Shown here piece by piece: positions 12,587-23,134 of a stretch of DNA of 64,000 bases (positions are counted from its first letter, which is position 1; each line of letters starts with the position of its first letter). The stretch is from NCBI GenBank assembly GCA_947479455.1, contig CANJZE010000014.1, forward strand, positions 45,235 to 109,234. Direction: 5' to 3'. Made by a program: the position numbers and the translations under genes. The stretch is from Bacteroidota bacterium. Lineage in GTDB: Bacteria; Bacteroidota; Bacteroidia; Chitinophagales; LD1. Under the pieces are notes generated by a model, which saw only the letters and a list, made by a program, of their open reading frames with translations, did not search any database and had not been told where the DNA came from.

Positions 12587-13462
12587 TCAATGGTAAATGA
12601 AATAAGCCATCATGGTTACCCAGCAAAGTAGCGATAATTGAATGCGTCTATTTTCTTGTAGCACTTTTTGCGGGGCAATACTTTTTATGCCCTCTTGAAT
12701 CAAACAAACATAATTATAGGCTCCATACCATACGGGAAGGCAGGTTATAAAAACAAATGGTGAACCTAATCGGGAAATGGTGTAAGGGGTTAATGTATAG
12801 AAAGAATAACAAGCTACCGCTATTAAAATAATAAGGACTATGCCTTGTTGCAAATTAACTGTAGAATAAAATTTTAATGATGGACGAACTTCTGAAAACT
12901 TTACCTGGTGTATTTCGAGCAGATTGATTTCTTCTAACCTTTTTGCTAAACCAAAGCCAAAGGCAAACAAAACAATCATTGCATACAACCACCAAGAAAT
13001 TGGGGTTTGGCTCACCACTGCCCCCGCTTGTAGGCGAAAAAGAAAACCCATAGTAATTAGCAATAGATCAAGAAACGGAACGTGTTTGCCGTATGCTGAG
13101 TAAATTAAATTGATAGCTAGATACGATAAACAATAGTAGAAGAACTCGATGGAAATTAAATGCGCTCCTGCGAACGCTGCTAACAGCAGCGAGGCGGTGA
13201 TGGCAGCGCTGGTAACGACCGAAATTTTTTCAGCTGCCAAAAGTTTTTGCATTTTTTGCGGATGCTGCCTATCATACTTGAGATCAAACAAATCGTTGAT
13301 AATATACACCGCACTAGCGAGAAGTGAAAAAATACAAAACGAAGCAGATAACAGATACAAATGATTACTCATGATTAAGCTGCCGCCAAAAAATGCAGGA
13401 AAGAAAAGCAGAACGTTTTTTACGTAATCTTTTGTTCTAAAAAATTGTAACCAGTGCTTCAT
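12587..13462 (-). CDS. UbiA-family prenyltransferase, polyprenyl-phosphate phosphoribosyltransferase-like
   Basis: 291-aa integral membrane prenyltransferase with about eight or nine hydrophobic segments. The Mg-pyrophosphate motif reads NDLFDLKYDRQHPQK; the His-Pro after the second Asp box is characteristic of the branch that includes mycobacterial decaprenyl-phosphate 5-phosphoribosyltransferase (Rv3806c), rather than menaquinone or heme UbiA enzymes. The start at 13462 (MKHWLQFFRTKDYVKN) is preferred over 13561 because the extra 33 residues are not membrane- or family-like. It is the first gene of a tight UbiA-HAD-GT-C operon and is transcribed away from the divergent TonB receptor. The exact donor and acceptor are inference. 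Confidence 0.78.
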   Translation of the reverse strand: MKHWLQFFRTKDYVKNVLLFFPAFFGGSLIMSNHLYLLSASFCIFSLLASAVYIINDLFDLKYDRQHPQKMQKLLAAEKISVVTSAAITASLLLAAFAGAHLISIEFFYYCLSYLAINLIYSAYGKHVPFLDLLLITMGFLFRLQAGAVVSQTPISWWLYAMIVLFAFGFGLAKRLEEINLLEIHQVKFSEVRPSLKFYSTVNLQQGIVLIILIAVACYSFYTLTPYTISRLGSPFVFITCLPVWYGAYNYVCLIQEGIKSIAPQKVLQENRRIQLSLLCWVTMMAYFIYH

Positions 13463-13838
13463 TAAAAGTATTGCAAAATTATTTTTTTGAAATGGCTGGG
13501 GTAGTGCAGAAAATGACCATGAGCTTAAATACTTTTTTGAAAACCTGAATCGGGAACGCAACCAAGAATTTCGGGTTGCCTTTTTTAGTGCAAATTATGC
13601 CAGCTATCATCAGTAGTGGTTTTCAAAAAAAAAATGACAATTCTATGACATCACTAAGTTGATTTTGTACAACTCTGGAACTCATTTCTCATAGGAGAAA
13701 TGAGCATTCAATTATTCAATTGTCATAATTCTGTCATTTTTTTTCAAAAGCATTACACCGCATCCGTATGCTCTTAACTTTGTTTCACAAAAAAAATTAC
13801 TTTTGACCGCTTTTTGATAAACGCAATACATTTCGTGT
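13463..13838. promoter_or_regulatory. Divergent control region with nested inverted sites
   Basis: A 376-bp gap between divergent transcription units. It holds ATGACA-ATTCT-ATGACA at 13634-13650 and the inverted arrangement TGTCAT-AATTC-TGTCAT at 13721-13737, each flanked on its outer side by an A- or T-tract. Between them is a perfect palindrome, CTCATTTCTC-atag-GAGAAATGAG, at 13681-13704. A consensus -7 box TAACTTTG (13775-13782) lies about 57 bp before the TonB receptor ATG; no clear -33 TTTG precedes it. The palindrome lacks a T-tail, so it reads as an operator rather than a terminator. That the sites bind a regulator is inference. Confidence 0.6.
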
Positions 13839-16800
13839 ATGAAAAAAATACTTACTCTCTTCAGTTTAGTAGCAGGTCTATTTGTAGCTCACGCGCAAAA
13901 CGGTGAAATTTCAGGAAAGGTCGTAGATGAAAACGGGGAAGGTGTTCCCGTAGCCAATGTCGTTTTGGTAGACAACAAAGGTGTTTCTACAGGTCGTGGC
14001 ACCAATACCGATTTTGATGGGAATTATTCTATTAAACCCCTTACTCCCGGCAAATACAATTTGCAAGTTTCATATCTGGGATATGCTGCACAAATTCAAC
14101 AAGGTGTGGTCGTTAGTTCCGATAAAGCGACCTTTATTGATGTGAAACTTCGACCCTCTTCAAAGGAATTGAACGCGGTAGAAATTATTTCATACAAAGT
14201 GCCTTTGATTGATCCGGGCAAAACGTCTTCACAAAATACCGTTACTGCCGAGGAAATCGCAAACATGTCAAGTAAAAACGTAACCGATATTGCAGCGACC
14301 ACAGCGGGAGCTTTTCAAAATGATCAAGGCGGAGGCATTAATATAAAAGGAGGCAGATCGGAAGGAACCCAGTATTATATAGATGGAGTAAAAGTTACAG
14401 GTGTACCTACTTTACCAGCTTCATCTATTGAACAGTTACAAGTTATCACCGGAGGCGTGCCAGCAAAATATGGTGACTTGACGGGTGGAATCGTAAACAT
14501 TACTACTAAGGGACCATCAGGAGAATTTAGAGGAGGTTTAGAGTATCAAACTACCCAAGGCTTGGACGCTTACGGATATAATCTTGTCAATGCAAATCTT
14601 ACTGGTCCAATCTGGAAGCAAAAAAGCACCCACAAAACTATCCTAGGGTTTTTCTTGGCATTTGAGTATCTGCGTCAACAAGAACCCGATCCATCGGCTA
14701 TAGGTATTTGGCAGGTGAAAAAGGATATGTTGGATTCAATTCGTCAGTTTCCATTAATTAGAAATCTGGTGAACAATGGATTTTCTTTACGAGCCGATAA
14801 CCTGACTTATAAAGACATGTATAACACCAAGATTCGTCCAAACGTGGTAGAGAGCAATTTTCGCGGAAACGGACGATTCGATATTCGCCCGGCCGATAAT
14901 TTTACTTTGTCTTTTGGAGGTTCTGTTTCGTACGAAAAAGCGCATAATTCAATTGACCAATACACTTTATTAAACTTCGATAACTTTCCTGAGCGCAGCG
15001 TATTGAACTGGAGAGTATTTGGACGCTTTACGCACAGTATTCAGTCGAAACAGGCCGAGGAAGATGAGAAGGCCGGCAAGAAGAAAAAGTCTTCTGCTTT
15101 CCAAAACGCTTTTTACTCGGTTCAATTTGACTATGAGAAATTGGTTGCAAAAACCCAAGATGATACACACGGTGCAAACTTGTTTAATTACGGATACATC
15201 GGCAAGTTTGATGTGCTAGAAGCACCGTCATTTGTTTCGGGAAGCAATTTCCAAAAAGGAAGCGATCCTATCCTCAACGGCTGGTTGCAAAAAGCATATC
15301 AGGATACCGCTGTGTTATTTACTCCAGGCAATTTAAATCCCTACGCAACCAGTTACACACGTCAGTATTATGAGCTTCTAGATGCCACTGTTGACGGTAA
15401 TGGAAGATATCAGGCATTTGGCGAAAACAATGCAAATTTCACAAGAACACTTCGCGACATTGACGGGAATAAAGGATTGATTAATGGACAACGCAGTTCT
15501 GACTTTGCCAATAATATCTGGTACACTACTGGTCGGCAATACCCGCGTTTTGGCTATAGCTATTTCGATATTAATGATGCAAGTAATCCGCAAAACGGTG
15601 GAGGTAATAATGACCAATATCACGTAAGACTAGAGGGCGCATTTGATATTTTGAAACCAGGTGCACCTAGTCGCAATAAACATTCTATAGAATTTGGAAT
15701 TGAATTTGAACAACGTATACAGCGCGAATACTTGGCGTTTCCTGTAGGCTTATGGGAAGGAGCACGTAACTTGGCTAATATGCAACTGGCAGAATTGGAT
15801 ACATTCAATCCAATTATAAGAATAGGCGGTCAGGACTACACCTATGCAGAATTTCAATCGCAACATTTGACTTTTCATACTTACGACACAGTAAGATTCG
15901 AAAGATATTACAAAGGCTCAGAACAATCTTTCTTTGATAAACAATTACGTAAATCTCTAGGACTTGCCGAAAATGGGATTGAAAAAATAAATATTGATGC
16001 ACTTACTCCTGATCAATTGAGCTTAAACATGTTTTCTCCGGAAGAACTCTTGAATAATGGAACATCTTATGTTAGTTACAGAGGATACGACCCTTATGGC
16101 AATGTGCTTTCTAAGCAACCGTCATTCAACGATTTCTTTACTAAAAAACGCGAAGATGGTGAATTGGAAAGAGCCATACCTGCTTTCCGACCAATTTATA
16201 CGGCTGCGTATATTTCAGATAGATTCTACTTTAAAGATCTCACATTTAACGTGGGTGTTCGTATTGATCGTTTTGATGCTAACCAAAAAGTATTGAAAGA
16301 TGAATACTCGCTTTATCCAATAAAAACAACTGCCGAAGTCACCGAAATAAACGGAGTTCCAATTTCGCACCCTAGTAATATGGGGGGTGATTATGCGGTT
16401 TATGTAGATGACGTAAAAAGTCCTACCGCAATTACGGGCTATAGAAGTGGTGATACATGGTATGATCGCTACGGCAATGAACTATCAAGCGGAAACACAG
16501 TGGCAACGGCTGCAGGCATTCAGCCTTATTTAAAAGATCCGGAAGCCAATGTGAAATTGCCCGAGAAGTTTGATCCTAACGGAAGTTTTACCGATTACAA
16601 AGCCAAAATAATTGTAATGCCGCGTCTTCAGTTTTCATTCAACTTAACCGACCGTGCTTTATTCTTTGCTCACTATGACATCCTTTCGCAGCGCCCTAAC
16701 TCGCGCGTGATTATGGACCCTACTCAGTATTTGTATTTTGGAGCTAACCGAATGAATAATCCAAACCTTAAACCAGAGCGAACCATTGACTTCGAGTTAG

Positions 16801-17675
16801 GATTTAAACAAAGAGTTAGTAATACAGCGGCAGTTACTATTTCGGCATTTTATCGTGAGTTCCGCGACCAGATTCAGTTGAAAAAATATTACAACGCCTA
16901 TCCTAGAACGTATACGACCTACGGCAATGTTGACTTTGGAACCACCAAAGGATTTGCTCTGGACTTTGATATGAGAAGAACTGCCAACTTTACCTTGAAG
17001 GCTAATTATACTATGACTTTTGCCGAAGGAACCGGTTCAGATGACCGTTCACAGTTAAACATAGTGAATGCTAACCAACCTAATTTTAGAACTATTAGCC
17101 CATTGAATTACGATTCTCGTCATGCAATTAATGTAAACGTAACATATAGCTATGGGGTAGGAAAAGACTATAACGGACCAACGGTTAAGAACAGTCAAAT
17201 TTTATCAGATGCAGGAATTTCTCTAGAACTCAAAGCAAGGTCAGGAACCCCGTATACGGCCGCAGCATTTTCATCTGCCGAAGGTTTGATTACCGGAAGC
17301 ACACGCGCCATTACCACCGGAGATTTGAATGGTTCGCGTAAGCCTTGGTATTTCAGAATGAACATGCGCGTTTGGAAAAACTTCAACTTCTTAGTAGGCA
17401 AAAAAGATAAGAAGAACGATGACAAACATGCTATGTCGGTTGAAATATACTTGCAAATTCAAAATTTATTGAACACTAAAAATGTGATAGGTGTTTACCG
17501 CTATACCGGAACAGCCAACGATAACGGCTACCTCTCGGATCCGGCTAATACTGTAGCTATCGAGTCGTACCTTAATCCGCAAGCATTCCGCGATCAGTAC
17601 TCCGCCTATATCAACTCACCAAATAATTACAGCGTACCCCGCAGAATTTATTTGGGACTGGTAGTTGGATTTTAA
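13839..17675 (+). CDS. TonB-dependent outer-membrane receptor with carboxypeptidase-like N-terminal domain
   Basis: 1278 aa. Signal peptide (MKKILTLFSLVAGLFVAHA), then a carboxypeptidase-regulatory-like beta-sandwich at about 22-110 (GKVVDENGEGVPVANVVLVD through LQVSYLGYAAQ). The TonB plug follows at about 120-240 (SSKNVTDIAATTAGAFQ, INIKGGRSEGTQYYIDGVKV, VPAKYGDLTGGIVNITTKG), then a long beta-barrel ending in YLGLVVGF with a terminal aromatic. It belongs to the oligomatrix/SusC-like group but has no SusD partner downstream. A T9SS protein and a PorV-like barrel follow it instead. It would import a large nutrient or take part in surface protein export; the ligand is unknown. Confidence 0.9.
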   Translation: MKKILTLFSLVAGLFVAHAQNGEISGKVVDENGEGVPVANVVLVDNKGVSTGRGTNTDFDGNYSIKPLTPGKYNLQVSYLGYAAQIQQGVVVSSDKATFIDVKLRPSSKELNAVEIISYKVPLIDPGKTSSQNTVTAEEIANMSSKNVTDIAATTAGAFQNDQGGGINIKGGRSEGTQYYIDGVKVTGVPTLPASSIEQLQVITGGVPAKYGDLTGGIVNITTKGPSGEFRGGLEYQTTQGLDAYGYNLVNANLTGPIWKQKSTHKTILGFFLAFEYLRQQEPDPSAIGIWQVKKDMLDSIRQFPLIRNLVNNGFSLRADNLTYKDMYNTKIRPNVVESNFRGNGRFDIRPADNFTLSFGGSVSYEKAHNSIDQYTLLNFDNFPERSVLNWRVFGRFTHSIQSKQAEEDEKAGKKKKSSAFQNAFYSVQFDYEKLVAKTQDDTHGANLFNYGYIGKFDVLEAPSFVSGSNFQKGSDPILNGWLQKAYQDTAVLFTPGNLNPYATSYTRQYYELLDATVDGNGRYQAFGENNANFTRTLRDIDGNKGLINGQRSSDFANNIWYTTGRQYPRFGYSYFDINDASNPQNGGGNNDQYHVRLEGAFDILKPGAPSRNKHSIEFGIEFEQRIQREYLAFPVGLWEGARNLANMQLAELDTFNPIIRIGGQDYTYAEFQSQHLTFHTYDTVRFERYYKGSEQSFFDKQLRKSLGLAENGIEKINIDALTPDQLSLNMFSPEELLNNGTSYVSYRGYDPYGNVLSKQPSFNDFFTKKREDGELERAIPAFRPIYTAAYISDRFYFKDLTFNVGVRIDRFDANQKVLKDEYSLYPIKTTAEVTEINGVPISHPSNMGGDYAVYVDDVKSPTAITGYRSGDTWYDRYGNELSSGNTVATAAGIQPYLKDPEANVKLPEKFDPNGSFTDYKAKIIVMPRLQFSFNLTDRALFFAHYDILSQRPNSRVIMDPTQYLYFGANRMNNPNLKPERTIDFELGFKQRVSNTAAVTISAFYREFRDQIQLKKYYNAYPRTYTTYGNVDFGTTKGFALDFDMRRTANFTLKANYTMTFAEGTGSDDRSQLNIVNANQPNFRTISPLNYDSRHAINVNVTYSYGVGKDYNGPTVKNSQILSDAGISLELKARSGTPYTAAAFSSAEGLITGSTRAITTGDLNGSRKPWYFRMNMRVWKNFNFLVGKKDKKNDDKHAMSVEIYLQIQNLLNTKNVIGVYRYTGTANDNGYLSDPANTVAIESYLNPQAFRDQYSAYINSPNNYSVPRRIYLGLVVGF

Positions 17676-17738: not shown

Positions 17739-20700
17739 ATGAAAAGGATTTTTTTAAGCTTCACTCTCTGTGCATTCATGATGCTGTCGGGTGTTTTGGC
17801 AAACGCAAAAGAATTGGTGCATCGCGAGCACCGCAGTACTACAGGAGCGCACAAAACCGAAGCCGGTGATTGTGTTTCTCCAACCGCTCAATTTGATTTG
17901 GATATCAACAATGTTAGAGCAAAGCTCCTAACGGGTGGTGATATGTGGTGGAATTTTAATGACCCTAAGTACGAGGTGCCAAAGGGTGATGGAACAGCAC
18001 CACCGGTTTGTGCAATTTTTGCAGGCGCAATTTGGATTTCGGGTTTAGATGCCGGAGGAAATTTGAAATTAGCGGGACAACTTTATCGAGAAGGCGGAGA
18101 TGACTTTTGGCCGGGCCCGCTTACAGGAGGAACGGTAGATAAATCTACGTGTAACAAGTATGACAGATTCTTTAATGTGCTTGGTGCTGATATTAGCAAA
18201 GCACAAACTGCCTTCATTACCAAGGGTGCAGGAACTACTGTTTTAGATATTCCTAAAGGTTTGCTTTCATGGCCAGCAAAAGGCAATCAGTATTTGGCGG
18301 CAGATGCTTCTATATTAGGTGAAACGTTCAACATAACCGAAAACCTTGCTCCATTTTATGATGCTGATGGTGATGGCAGTTATGATCCGGTAAACGGAGA
18401 TTTTCCAATTATACCTTGTATTAACGGAGACACAAAAGCTTATGCTGACCAAATGACTTTTTGGGTGTTTAATGACCAGGGCAATTTGCACACGCAAACC
18501 AGCGGCACAGCTTTAGGAGTACAGGTTAATGCTTTGGCGTTTGCTTTTCAAACGACCGATGACATCAACAATATGACTTTTTACAAGTATGAAATCACGA
18601 ATAAATCGGCTACGAATTACAAGGACGCTTATATCTCGCAATGGATTGACCCTGATTTGGGATGCTATAAAAATGACCGTGTAGGTTGCGATACGTCTCG
18701 TTCATTGGTGGTTTGTTACAACGGAACAACACCTGACCCGCTTTCTAATTGCAATGGGGAGTACGGATATGGGTCAGAACTTCCATTAGTGGGTATTGAT
18801 TTTTTTGAAGGACCATTGAGTGATAGTGGCAAACAACTGGGTCTTTCCTCGTTTGTGTATTTCACAGGTATTGGAGCTGCTCAATGTTACAGCGATCCGG
18901 GTTCAGCAAGAGAGTACAGAAACTATCAGGAAGGTAAATGGGCTTGTGGTGAAGCGATTACCGAAGGGGGAACAGGGCATGGTGGTAGTACGCCAACAAA
19001 ATTTTGTTTCCCAGGCGAGCCATGTGATCCAAACTCTTGGAGCGATTATAATAGCGGTCAGCCAGAGGGTGATAGAAGAACGGTGCAAACATCGGGTCCT
19101 TTCAATCTAAAGTCTGGGCAACCACAGTACGTAACAATAGGGGTTGTGTTTGTACAACCCCAGGGTGGGGTGGCAGTTAATCCGTGTTTTTCTACCACTA
19201 TAGGACCAGCTGATGATAAAGCTCAGAGTTTATTCAACACTTGTTTCAAAATTTTGGACGGGCCAGATGCACCTACACTTTCTCTACGAGAAATGAATAA
19301 TCAAATCATTATCAATTTGGTCAACTTAAAAGGCTCTAATAATTTTGGAGAAGGATACGACCAATTAGATGGTAATGCGAAAGATGCGGTAGAACATTTA
19401 CCCGGAACAAACGGTGATTCTACTTTTACGTTTGAGGGATATAGATTGTATCAAGTTGCCAGCCCAACTGTTTCGGCTACTGATTTAAACAATCTAGAAA
19501 AGGCACAACCTATTGCCATTGTAGATTTGAAAAATGGTATAAAGCAAGTAATCAACTTTAAGAAAGATGGTGCTTTGGGAGGTTTGCTGGTTCCTTATGT
19601 GGCTGTAGAGTCACAAGATGCGGGAATTTCTAATTCTTTTTTGATTACAAAAGACCTTTTTGCTACAGGAAATTCGACAGATTTAGTCAATCATAAAACG
19701 TATTATTTTACAGCAATAGCCTATGCTTACAATAACTACTTGCCTTACGATCCTTCTAATCCTTCAGGAGGAGCGCAGTTGACACCATACATTCAAGGCC
19801 GTGGGAATTTTGCGATTTACTCAGCTATTCCACACAATCCTGATCCACGCAATGAAGGAACTATTCTTAATGCTAAGTTTGGAGAAGGAACAGATGTTTT
19901 CAGAATAGAAGGTAGAGCTAATGCTGGTAACAACCTTCGTCTTACTCCCGAAACAATTGAAAGAATTCTTGCTTCATCTAATTGGTTTACCGATACCTTA
20001 CAATACGAAAAAGGATTTGACCCAATTGGCTTTAGAGTAACGGACCCTGTAAGTTTAAAAGAAGCAGATTTTGAAGTTCAGTTTGTAGATACACTTACTA
20101 ATCGTGTTGGAAAAACAACACGTTGGTTTTTACATGATCTAACTAATAATGACACCATTTGGGGAGAAAGAAACATTGACCGTCCTTTTGAGCAAAATAT
20201 GGTTTTGACTAGAGGCAGTGAGTTAATTAATTATGGTTTTTCTATTAAGATTGGTTTGCCTACTCCAATTTACAACATTGATAAAACGTATTTACCTACT
20301 TCAGTAGATTCACCTACTAGATATGTGTATGATGTGGTTAGCTCGTATGATGCTGCTAACAATACAAACAGTCCGGTTTCGGCTATTGAATTTCAAAACC
20401 CTACCGAACAGTGGCTGAGTTTTGTAAAAGATGAAGGCGTAAATGCAGTTACGAACTGGATTCGTTCAGGCACTAATGACAATGACCCGGCTAGTCAAAC
20501 ACTTACGGTAAAAGCTGCAGCCGATGTTTTTGATGATAACGGTTGGTATACAGGTCCAACTCCATCTACATTTCCTCATGGACCATGGAGCGACCCTGCT
20601 GAGTATTTTGAGAAGATTTGCAATGGCGCTTGGGCACCTTATTGTTTAACGTGTAACTATGCTAAAAGAGCTTTAACCACTACTGATTTGAATAACGGCA

Positions 20701-21956
20701 AACCGCCATTTATTTTCCAACCAGGATTTAAGTGGAGAAATTACGCCACATCAATCCCTCCTCAAAATACGTTGGATAGATTGCAGAGTGTAGATATTAT
20801 TCTTACACCGGATAAAAGCAAGTGGACAAGAGCTGTAGTTTTTGAAACTGGTGAGGATGAAACCATCAACTATGGCGAGGACATTTCGCCTAACCACAAA
20901 AAACCACGCAAAGGACAAATCAGAATGGCTATTTCAAAAGTTTGGAATAACCCAAGTGTAAGAGATTACCTGGTAACTGATCCAAGCCGTTCCGATACCG
21001 GTCGTTCATGGTTCCCGGGTTATGCTATTAATGTAGAAACCGGAGAGCGTTTAAATATTGCCTTTGGTGAGGCCACAGATTTCAGCAGCCCGAATGATCT
21101 GAACAGCCAAAATGGAAATGATATGCTTTGGAATCCTACCGATAAGGTTTTCAGCCCTCAATATTTCCCTGGTTTAATGGTTGAGAACCCACCTTATTTT
21201 GGAGGTAAACATTTTGTGTATGTAATGGAAACGAAGTACGATGAAGGTGAGGTGGCGCAAAAAACTTTGTTGGCTAACTATACAAACCTTGGTGGTCTAC
21301 CACTTTTCAATATTCCTGCTGCTTTGCCACCGTTGTATCGTCAATTGATGTGGTGTGCAATGCCTTACTTAACACCGGGCTATAGTTTTCAAGATGACGG
21401 AGGTGGAAACAAAATTGTACCACCATCTGAAGTTAAAGTTCGCTTGCGTGTAGAAAAACCTATTGACCGATTAGCTACTAACGCCAGCAATGGAGCTGAT
21501 TCATTGCCGCGTTATAGATTTAGTACAAAAGGATTGGGTGCAACCGAAAAAAATGCTGAAGTAGCTAAAAATGCTCTTGACCTAATTCGCATTGTTCCTA
21601 ATCCATACTTGGCGTATTCATCATACGAAGTTGATCAAAATAGTAACCGCGTTAAGGTGACCAACTTACCCAACAAATGCAACATCACCATTTTTGCACT
21701 TGATGGAACTATTATTCGCAAGTTAAGCAGAGCCATAGATATTGATCCGGCTACTAGTCGCAAAGTTGAAATTAGCAATGGCGAAACAGTTAGCAATGTA
21801 AATATTGAAAACTCTATTGATTGGGATTTAAAAAACGATAAAGGCATCATCATTGCCAGCGGGGTTTATCTTTTCCATGTAGAAGCACCGGGCATTGGTC
21901 AAAAAACATTGAAATGGTTTGGTGCAGTTCGTCCGGCAGACGCATCGAATTTCTAA
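17739..21956 (+). CDS. Giant secreted protein with FlgD/T9SS-like C-terminal domain
   Basis: 1405 aa with a clear signal peptide (FTLCAFMMLSGVLANAKE). The N-terminal part has a conserved-looking block around AKLLTGGDMWWNFNDPKY and AIFAGAIWISGLDAGGNL. The middle is long, beta-rich and has scattered Cys residues. The C-terminus (RIVPNPYLAYSSYEV, VKVTNLPNKCNITIFALDG, VYLFHVEAPGIGQKTLKWFG) resembles a FlgD-like Ig/T9SS sorting domain with a short tail. It lies 63 bp after the TonB receptor and 104 bp before a PorV-like gene on the same strand. No catalytic motif is recognised; a surface-exposed cargo of the T9SS is the best reading. Confidence 0.78.
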   Translation: MKRIFLSFTLCAFMMLSGVLANAKELVHREHRSTTGAHKTEAGDCVSPTAQFDLDINNVRAKLLTGGDMWWNFNDPKYEVPKGDGTAPPVCAIFAGAIWISGLDAGGNLKLAGQLYREGGDDFWPGPLTGGTVDKSTCNKYDRFFNVLGADISKAQTAFITKGAGTTVLDIPKGLLSWPAKGNQYLAADASILGETFNITENLAPFYDADGDGSYDPVNGDFPIIPCINGDTKAYADQMTFWVFNDQGNLHTQTSGTALGVQVNALAFAFQTTDDINNMTFYKYEITNKSATNYKDAYISQWIDPDLGCYKNDRVGCDTSRSLVVCYNGTTPDPLSNCNGEYGYGSELPLVGIDFFEGPLSDSGKQLGLSSFVYFTGIGAAQCYSDPGSAREYRNYQEGKWACGEAITEGGTGHGGSTPTKFCFPGEPCDPNSWSDYNSGQPEGDRRTVQTSGPFNLKSGQPQYVTIGVVFVQPQGGVAVNPCFSTTIGPADDKAQSLFNTCFKILDGPDAPTLSLREMNNQIIINLVNLKGSNNFGEGYDQLDGNAKDAVEHLPGTNGDSTFTFEGYRLYQVASPTVSATDLNNLEKAQPIAIVDLKNGIKQVINFKKDGALGGLLVPYVAVESQDAGISNSFLITKDLFATGNSTDLVNHKTYYFTAIAYAYNNYLPYDPSNPSGGAQLTPYIQGRGNFAIYSAIPHNPDPRNEGTILNAKFGEGTDVFRIEGRANAGNNLRLTPETIERILASSNWFTDTLQYEKGFDPIGFRVTDPVSLKEADFEVQFVDTLTNRVGKTTRWFLHDLTNNDTIWGERNIDRPFEQNMVLTRGSELINYGFSIKIGLPTPIYNIDKTYLPTSVDSPTRYVYDVVSSYDAANNTNSPVSAIEFQNPTEQWLSFVKDEGVNAVTNWIRSGTNDNDPASQTLTVKAAADVFDDNGWYTGPTPSTFPHGPWSDPAEYFEKICNGAWAPYCLTCNYAKRALTTTDLNNGKPPFIFQPGFKWRNYATSIPPQNTLDRLQSVDIILTPDKSKWTRAVVFETGEDETINYGEDISPNHKKPRKGQIRMAISKVWNNPSVRDYLVTDPSRSDTGRSWFPGYAINVETGERLNIAFGEATDFSSPNDLNSQNGNDMLWNPTDKVFSPQYFPGLMVENPPYFGGKHFVYVMETKYDEGEVAQKTLLANYTNLGGLPLFNIPAALPPLYRQLMWCAMPYLTPGYSFQDDGGGNKIVPPSEVKVRLRVEKPIDRLATNASNGADSLPRYRFSTKGLGATEKNAEVAKNALDLIRIVPNPYLAYSSYEVDQNSNRVKVTNLPNKCNITIFALDGTIIRKLSRAIDIDPATSRKVEISNGETVSNVNIENSIDWDLKNDKGIIIASGVYLFHVEAPGIGQKTLKWFGAVRPADASNF

Positions 21957-22060: not shown

Positions 22061-23134
22061 ATGAAGAAAATTCTAACAATAACTTTAGCAGTACTCACCT
22101 TTAGCAGTTCTACTTTTGCAGGTAACCCTGATAGAAGAGGCGAAGCAGGGGCTTATGAATTACTTATGAATGGATGGGCGCGCTCATCGGGTTTTTGGAG
22201 TATGAACTCTGCTAATATAAAAGGATTAGAAAGTGAGCGCATTAATGTGGCAGGTTTGGCCTTTACAAAGAAAACCGAAATTGCTGCGGCTTATACATTA
22301 TGGATGCAAGGCTCAGGAGTGGGAATTGCTCATGCTGGAGTGGCTCAGGCATTCAAGGAAACTAATGTTGTTGCTTTAACCATTCAGGCACTTAATTTGG
22401 GAACGGTTGAAAGAACGACTACACAAAATCCTGAAGGTGGAATTGGAACTTATCGCCCCACGTTTTTGAATATCGGAATTTCTTACTCCAAATTATTTTC
22501 AAACAGTATAGCTGGCGGTGTTACGTTTAGAATGGTAAATGAAAGTTTAGGAAACCTGAATGCTTTTGGTTTTGCTATTGATGCAGGTTTGCAATATGTT
22601 ACAGGACCAAAAGACAATGTTCACTTTGGCGTGTCACTTCGTAATGTGGGAACGCCTATGAAATTTAAAGGAGATGCTTTGTCAAATTCGGTAGAAGTAA
22701 TATCCACCAGCACGTATCAGTTAACTACATCAAACCGTTCAAACAAATTTGAATTACCTACGCAATTAAACATTGGTATAGCTTACGATTTTTGGGCGGG
22801 TAAGAAAAAAGAAGTTCAACCAAAAGTTTTTAAACAGGATTATCGCGTAACTGCTTTGGCTAATTTTACCTCCAACGCGTTTGGCTACGATCATTATGGT
22901 GTAGGTTTAGAGTTTAGCTGGAAAGAAATGCTTATGCTGCGCGCTGCATACCGCTTCGAGACAGGACAGTTCAAAAAAGACACCCGTTTAAACGCGTTCA
23001 CTGGTTTGTCTGCCGGTCTTACTTTCGATGCTCCATTGAAGAAAGATGGACCGCGTTTGGGTATTGATTATTCTTTCCGCGCTACACAACCATTTGCTGG
23101 CACACACAGTATAGGTTTGCACTTTAGCCTGTAA
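22061..23134 (+). CDS. PorV/PorQ-like outer-membrane beta-barrel protein
   Basis: 357 aa; signal peptide MKKILTITLAVLTFSSSTFA, then GNPDRRGEAGAYELLMNGWA and long amphipathic strands with repeated aromatic-Gly turns, ending in GLHFSL with a terminal hydrophobic residue, as in FadL-like barrels. The layout matches the PorV/PorQ family, whose PorV member shuttles T9SS cargo to the cell surface. Lying directly after a giant secreted protein, it could be a dedicated partner of that cargo (inference). It ends with a strong terminator, which closes the three-gene unit that begins with the TonB receptor. Confidence 0.75.
   Translation: MKKILTITLAVLTFSSSTFAGNPDRRGEAGAYELLMNGWARSSGFWSMNSANIKGLESERINVAGLAFTKKTEIAAAYTLWMQGSGVGIAHAGVAQAFKETNVVALTIQALNLGTVERTTTQNPEGGIGTYRPTFLNIGISYSKLFSNSIAGGVTFRMVNESLGNLNAFGFAIDAGLQYVTGPKDNVHFGVSLRNVGTPMKFKGDALSNSVEVISTSTYQLTTSNRSNKFELPTQLNIGIAYDFWAGKKKEVQPKVFKQDYRVTALANFTSNAFGYDHYGVGLEFSWKEMLMLRAAYRFETGQFKKDTRLNAFTGLSAGLTFDAPLKKDGPRLGIDYSFRATQPFAGTHSIGLHFSL

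Follow-up and report, generated by a model that had tools for sequence, protein, structure and literature searches.

The window, a stretch of 64,000 nucleotides from an uncultured Bacteroidota bacterium, contains a gene for a TonB-dependent receptor of 1278 aa (13839–17675, + strand; CarboxypepD_reg, Plug and beta-barrel domains), followed by a gene for a 1405-aa protein without Pfam match (17739–21956, + strand), which is probably co-transcribed with the receptor, given the common strand and the 63-nt gap. A 357-aa protein, also without Pfam match, is encoded downstream at 22061–23134. On the opposite strand, a UbiA-family prenyltransferase gene (12587–13462, - strand) probably starts at 13462, as judged by alignment with locus L084, 171 bp from the nearer of two repeat boxes that lie between it and the receptor.

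Both boxes are copies, in opposite orientation, of a single 17-bp direct-repeat box (consensus AATTGTCATRGAATTGTCATTTTT), and the repeat period is 11 bp in each. Box 1 (13634–13650, - strand) reads TGTCATAGAATTGTCAT on its own strand and ATGACA-attct-ATGACA on the + strand, and forms one direct-repeat half of the inverted pair; box 2 (13721–13737, + strand; TGTCATAATTCTGTCAT) reads TGTCAT-aattc-TGTCAT and is a predicted direct-repeat operator. Box 1 is flanked by an A-tract (A10, 13625–13634), which in the orientation of the box is a T-tract following it, and box 2 by a T-tract (T8, 13737–13744). The original prediction, which had described ATGACA-N5-ATGACA and TGTCAT-N5-TGTCAT arrays with an 11-bp period, bordered on their outer sides by A- or T-tracts, was accurate in each of these respects. 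When ATGACA-N5-ATGACA was searched across the 64-kb window allowing up to one mismatch, 0.42 matches were expected and two were found, both exact and corresponding to boxes 1 and 2.

The -7 box noted earlier toward the receptor was located as TACTTTTG (TAnnTTTG) at 13798–13805 on the + strand, where its consensus and position follow those described for Bacteroidota (PMC9723704). If the -7 box covers -12 to -5 (PMC9723704), the receptor start site would lie near 13810, placing the centre of box 2 at about -81 and that of box 1 at about -168. A TTTG at 13779–13782 (+ strand), inside conserved CTTAACTTTGTTT, is a possible -33 element, separated from the -7 box by 15 nt. Because this spacer is shorter than is usual in Bacteroidota promoters, the assignment of the -33 element is uncertain.

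Receptor orthologues were compared in six species (the window, L084, L087 from genome G004, L085 from G017, L086 from G001, and L095), and all six carry both boxes in inverse orientation, at start-to-start distances of 86, 86, 86, 86, 86 and 85 bp. The TGTCA...TGTCA of box 2 is invariant in these species, and the distance from box 2 to TTTGACCG is 65–66 nt, whereas the stretch that separates the two boxes has diverged. The inverse orientation and the distance kept in all six make paired or cooperative use of the two boxes plausible. Among more distant receptor orthologues, L089 and L122 keep box 2 only, L105 has an upstream box only, and the others have none.

The same comparison separated the boxes from two further features of the original prediction. 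The palindrome between them (13681–13704; CTCATTTCTC-ATAG-GAGAAATGAG) does have a perfect 10-bp stem and a 4-nt loop, but it is perfect in the window only and absent from the receptor orthologues, in which a short core is kept around CATAGG (CATTGG or CATTGA elsewhere). A second perfect stem with the same stem and loop size occurs in the 64-kb window, so that the palindrome is unremarkable. The palindrome was ruled out as an operator on account of its lack of conservation, and is probably incidental. A shared site for divergent UbiA and TonB units had also been proposed, of which the receptor side was retained and the ubiA side was not: the window and L084 share ubiA as upstream neighbour, but that place is taken by a co-directional gene for a secreted protein in L085 and by a distant unrelated gene in L087. 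Since box 1 is retained even without ubiA, the box pair would serve the receptor; ubiA is probably not the target and was discarded as one.

Whole-genome motif statistics were obtained by pattern searches. In the 3.76-Mb genome, TTGTCA-N(0-25)-TTGTCA gave 26 matches, 11 of them with N5 and zero to two at each other spacing, and the 16-mer of box 1 (TGTCATAGAATTGTCA) was found at box 1 and seven other places. Across 61 genomes, TTGTCAT-N4-TTGTCA was found in all 30 from the same family, with a backwards control giving zero matches in 28 of them, and in 9 of 31 genomes from the other families of the order, at one or two copies each. The consensus over 75 boxes is AATTGTCAT(A/G)GAATTGTCA, with a T-rich run of about six positions behind it (18–23 after the box), so that the outer A- and T-tracts at the receptor belong to the predicted operator. 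Away from the receptor, the box is mostly single and has no hairpin partner. The array is, on this comparative evidence, a genuine and conserved predicted regulator operator with one-turn direct repeats; it both recurs in the genome and is kept in relatives, the two properties whose joint absence the original prediction had named as fatal to it. Separately, a 460-bp stretch (G000:C43:214-670) holds four TGTCATSCCWGTGTAA-type matches that are nearly identical to one another and appear to be a repeat array unrelated to the operator.

Within the genus, the box precedes orthologous genes in two to nine genomes, which gives about a dozen targets beyond the receptor of the window, comprising surface and transport genes. 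The most widespread, with up to nine genomes, is a divergent gene pair for a 167-aa protein and a T9SS-sorted protein; in the genome of the window, the 167-aa gene is followed by that for a CarboxypepD_reg/OMP_b-brl_3 barrel. A T9SS-sorted 298-aa protein and a TonB receptor have the box in six genomes each, a T9SS-sorted protein after thymidine kinase in four or five, selD, a 126-aa protein and a second tonB gene in four each, and exbB-exbD-exbD-tonB in three. In L045:5216-9489, this last cluster is preceded by the box and followed by a gene for a PstS-like PBP_like_2 protein. A large kinase and M43 peptidase pair has several tandem repeats in four genomes, and in three genomes (L039:4977-5015, L166:2487-2526 and L192:2505-2544) the interval between the large sensor kinase and M43 peptidase genes holds a tandem array of four half-sites that keeps the 11-bp register exactly. 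Since the 3.76-Mb genome G000 encodes at least 150 T9SS sorting domains, T9SS-sorted targets are weak evidence by themselves, and the joint presence of exbB, exbD, two tonB genes and receptors carries more weight.

Upstream of selD (L042:4960-5017; also L165, L185 and L190), two convergent boxes face each other about 41 bp apart in four genomes, an arrangement that is a second, differently built double operator as predicted from sequence. From the box to the start of the -7 box there are 60 nt at the 298-aa T9SS protein (four genomes) and, counted in the same way, 62 nt at the receptor, a near-constant distance that suits upstream activation. At other targets the box lies 28–200 nt from the start codon, often without a clear TAnnTTTG; with the place of the box and the core promoter differing from target to target, activation would not be uniform, and some targets may be repressed. 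In L041:11500-11600 and in L188, a REP-like palindromic repeat (TGAGCCTGTCGAAG...CTTCGACAGGCTCA) adjoins an MgsA-family gene beside one box.

Only three OmpR-type (PF00486) regulators were found in the genome: a PhoB-like protein, an RprY-like protein, and one unnamed member of the family (G000:C1:201368-202063), encoded directly 3' of its own histidine kinase gene. The gap between this kinase and regulator carries the box in most of 14 genomes of the genus, about 63–107 nt before the regulator, nearly always in the same orientation, and as an exact match in G003; outside the genus, genus g4 of the same family and several further families of the order have it there as well. In the genome of the window, the gap box is a weaker match (TTGTCATGAAATTGTAA). 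Autoregulation commonly leaves such a pattern, a box ahead of the regulator's own gene across a genus, which makes the unnamed protein the likeliest regulator. Its score is below the cut-offs of all NCBIfam models listed, with 178.7 bits against NF040534 (YycF/WalR, cut-off 340) and 178 bits against NF053854 (PhoB, cut-off 270), to which the PhoB-like protein scores 211 bits; both proteins are also below TIGR02154. The RprY-like protein (306 bits, RprY model cut-off 370) is a distinct third regulator. The structures nearest to the DNA-binding domain of the candidate are those of WalR/VicR/YycF. In PhoB, bases are contacted by T194, V197, R201 and R219 (PMC3264566). Fewer such residues are present in the recognition helix of the candidate than in the PhoB-like protein, which counts against the candidate. 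In comparison with PhoB, the candidate appears to keep only T194 of the four, and the PhoB-like regulator is nearer.

With moderate confidence, the favored reading is that this candidate regulator occupies the two boxes as dimers and switches on transcription of the receptor, and that the box defines a regulon. The operator would be the tandem TGTCA-N6-TGTCA box, occupied by an OmpR/PhoB-family dimer with one DNA-binding domain on each 11-bp repeat. Bound at box 2 (about -81), one dimer would probably act as activator of the receptor promoter, and another at box 1 (about -168) would assist it. The regulator would most likely be the product of G000:C1:201368-202063, with the box in its own kinase–regulator gap, and the predicted regulon would include TonB transport machinery, outer-membrane receptors, type IX-secreted proteins and selD. 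What was observed directly is the motif, its recurrence and conservation, the constant spacing and the box ahead of the regulator gene; the identity of the binder, activation, the signal, and cooperation or looping are inferences. A broader proposal is put forward tentatively, as somewhat doubtful in its full extent: that an undescribed kinase–regulator pair, conserved beyond the family, co-controls exbB-exbD-tonB, the second tonB, several receptors and T9SS proteins through one operator, and that at the receptor of the window this operator is doubled as a conserved inverted pair with 86-bp spacing, which may go with DNA bending or looping.

It is possible but unlikely that the PhoB-like regulator (G000:C10:113440-114117) is the binder, in which case the boxes would be genuine Pho boxes and the kinase–regulator operon just one of its targets. 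E. coli PhoB sites are nearly the same as the box, the PhoB-like protein is the nearest to the PhoB models and its DNA-binding domain fits PhoB structures better than that of the candidate, and a PstS-like PBP follows the exbB-tonB targets; however, this is the one PstS-like protein, it lies in the exbB cluster, and neither a pst operon nor a phosphatase is among the identified targets. No box was found upstream of any of 25 PhoB-like orthologues (nor of any of five RprY-like orthologues), the PhoB-like regulator is present across the order where the box is mostly absent, and G007, which lacks a PhoB-like regulator, keeps boxes at four orthologous positions. A simple Pho regulon was rejected, since PhoU was not found in genome G000, the targets are not phosphate genes and the PhoB-like regulator has no box. 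Operators of a different, non-OmpR regulator, with the kinase–regulator pair as a target, are considered improbable. Such a regulator would account for G016, in which three boxes are kept and neither the candidate kinase nor its regulator was found, an observation that counts against the candidate; this assembly is fragmented (560 contigs, 93% complete), and the RprY-like protein was also not found in it at the threshold used. Binding of the box by an OmpR-family protein is itself a prediction, but a tandem 11-bp direct repeat is the established site form of the OmpR/PhoB family (PMC4415409), and the gene for one of the three OmpR-type proteins in the genome is preceded by the box across the genus.

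Formation of an RNA or DNA hairpin, either as a bidirectional terminator or as a structured leader, is very improbable as an account of the region. Both strands of the boxed region do fold far better than shuffles (z about -6 on each), with T-runs on either side, but a strong hairpin on both strands is expected because the boxes are inverted, and the region lies upstream of the predicted start site. An Rfam scan of the region gave only matches far below gathering scores. The hairpin or terminator was dismissed because no pairing forms between the two box spacers, which change independently of each other, because orthologues have lost the central stem, and because boxes elsewhere are mostly singletons. 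Chance resemblance or a mobile repeat, for which nothing specific speaks beyond short AT-rich matches, has a negligible probability, and is contradicted by the 11 genome-wide copies at one spacing against zero to two at others and by occurrence at orthologous positions with diverged flanks.

A literature search for a Bacteroidota regulator acting on TGTCA direct repeats found no description. To our knowledge, operators have been paired with regulators for few Bacteroidota systems. The defined box, the specific candidate regulator and the dozen or so orthologous targets make control of TonB transport and T9SS surface proteins directly testable in this lineage.

Among known systems, the E. coli Pho box is likewise formed of two 11-nt direct repeats (PMC4415409) with TGTCAT half-sites, and PhoB sites such as those of phoA (TGTCATAAAGTTGTCACG) and pstS (TGTCATAAAACTGTCATA) (PMC10294691) include several that differ from the present box mainly in spacer and flank (PMC10294691, PMC4415409). 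Unlike in E. coli, the targets here are TonB, T9SS and selD genes, PhoU was not found, the gene for the PhoB-like regulator is not preceded by a box, and the receptor has an inverted pair at a fixed 86-bp spacing. The Firmicutes WalR/VicR box (TGTWAH-N5-TGTWAH, for example TGTTATagaacTGTAAT at gcrR) has the same half-site shape and 5-bp spacer and is likewise used on either strand (PMC4168254), and the WalR/VicR/YycF structures are those that the candidate DNA-binding domain most resembles, whereas half-sites here are mostly TGTCA (with TGTAA as the second half in most autoregulatory boxes), phylum and targets differ, and both the candidate regulator and its kinase score far below WalRK models. 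In Porphyromonas, PorXY/SigP is described as controlling type IX secretion (Kadowaki 2016, as cited in PMC9723704), and it resembles the system predicted here in bringing a two-component input to T9SS-related genes in Bacteroidota, but acts via an ECF sigma factor, whereas the box found at cargo and TonB genes in the present case is of OmpR type. Set beside these systems, the box and its targets are a new predicted regulon of a known kind.
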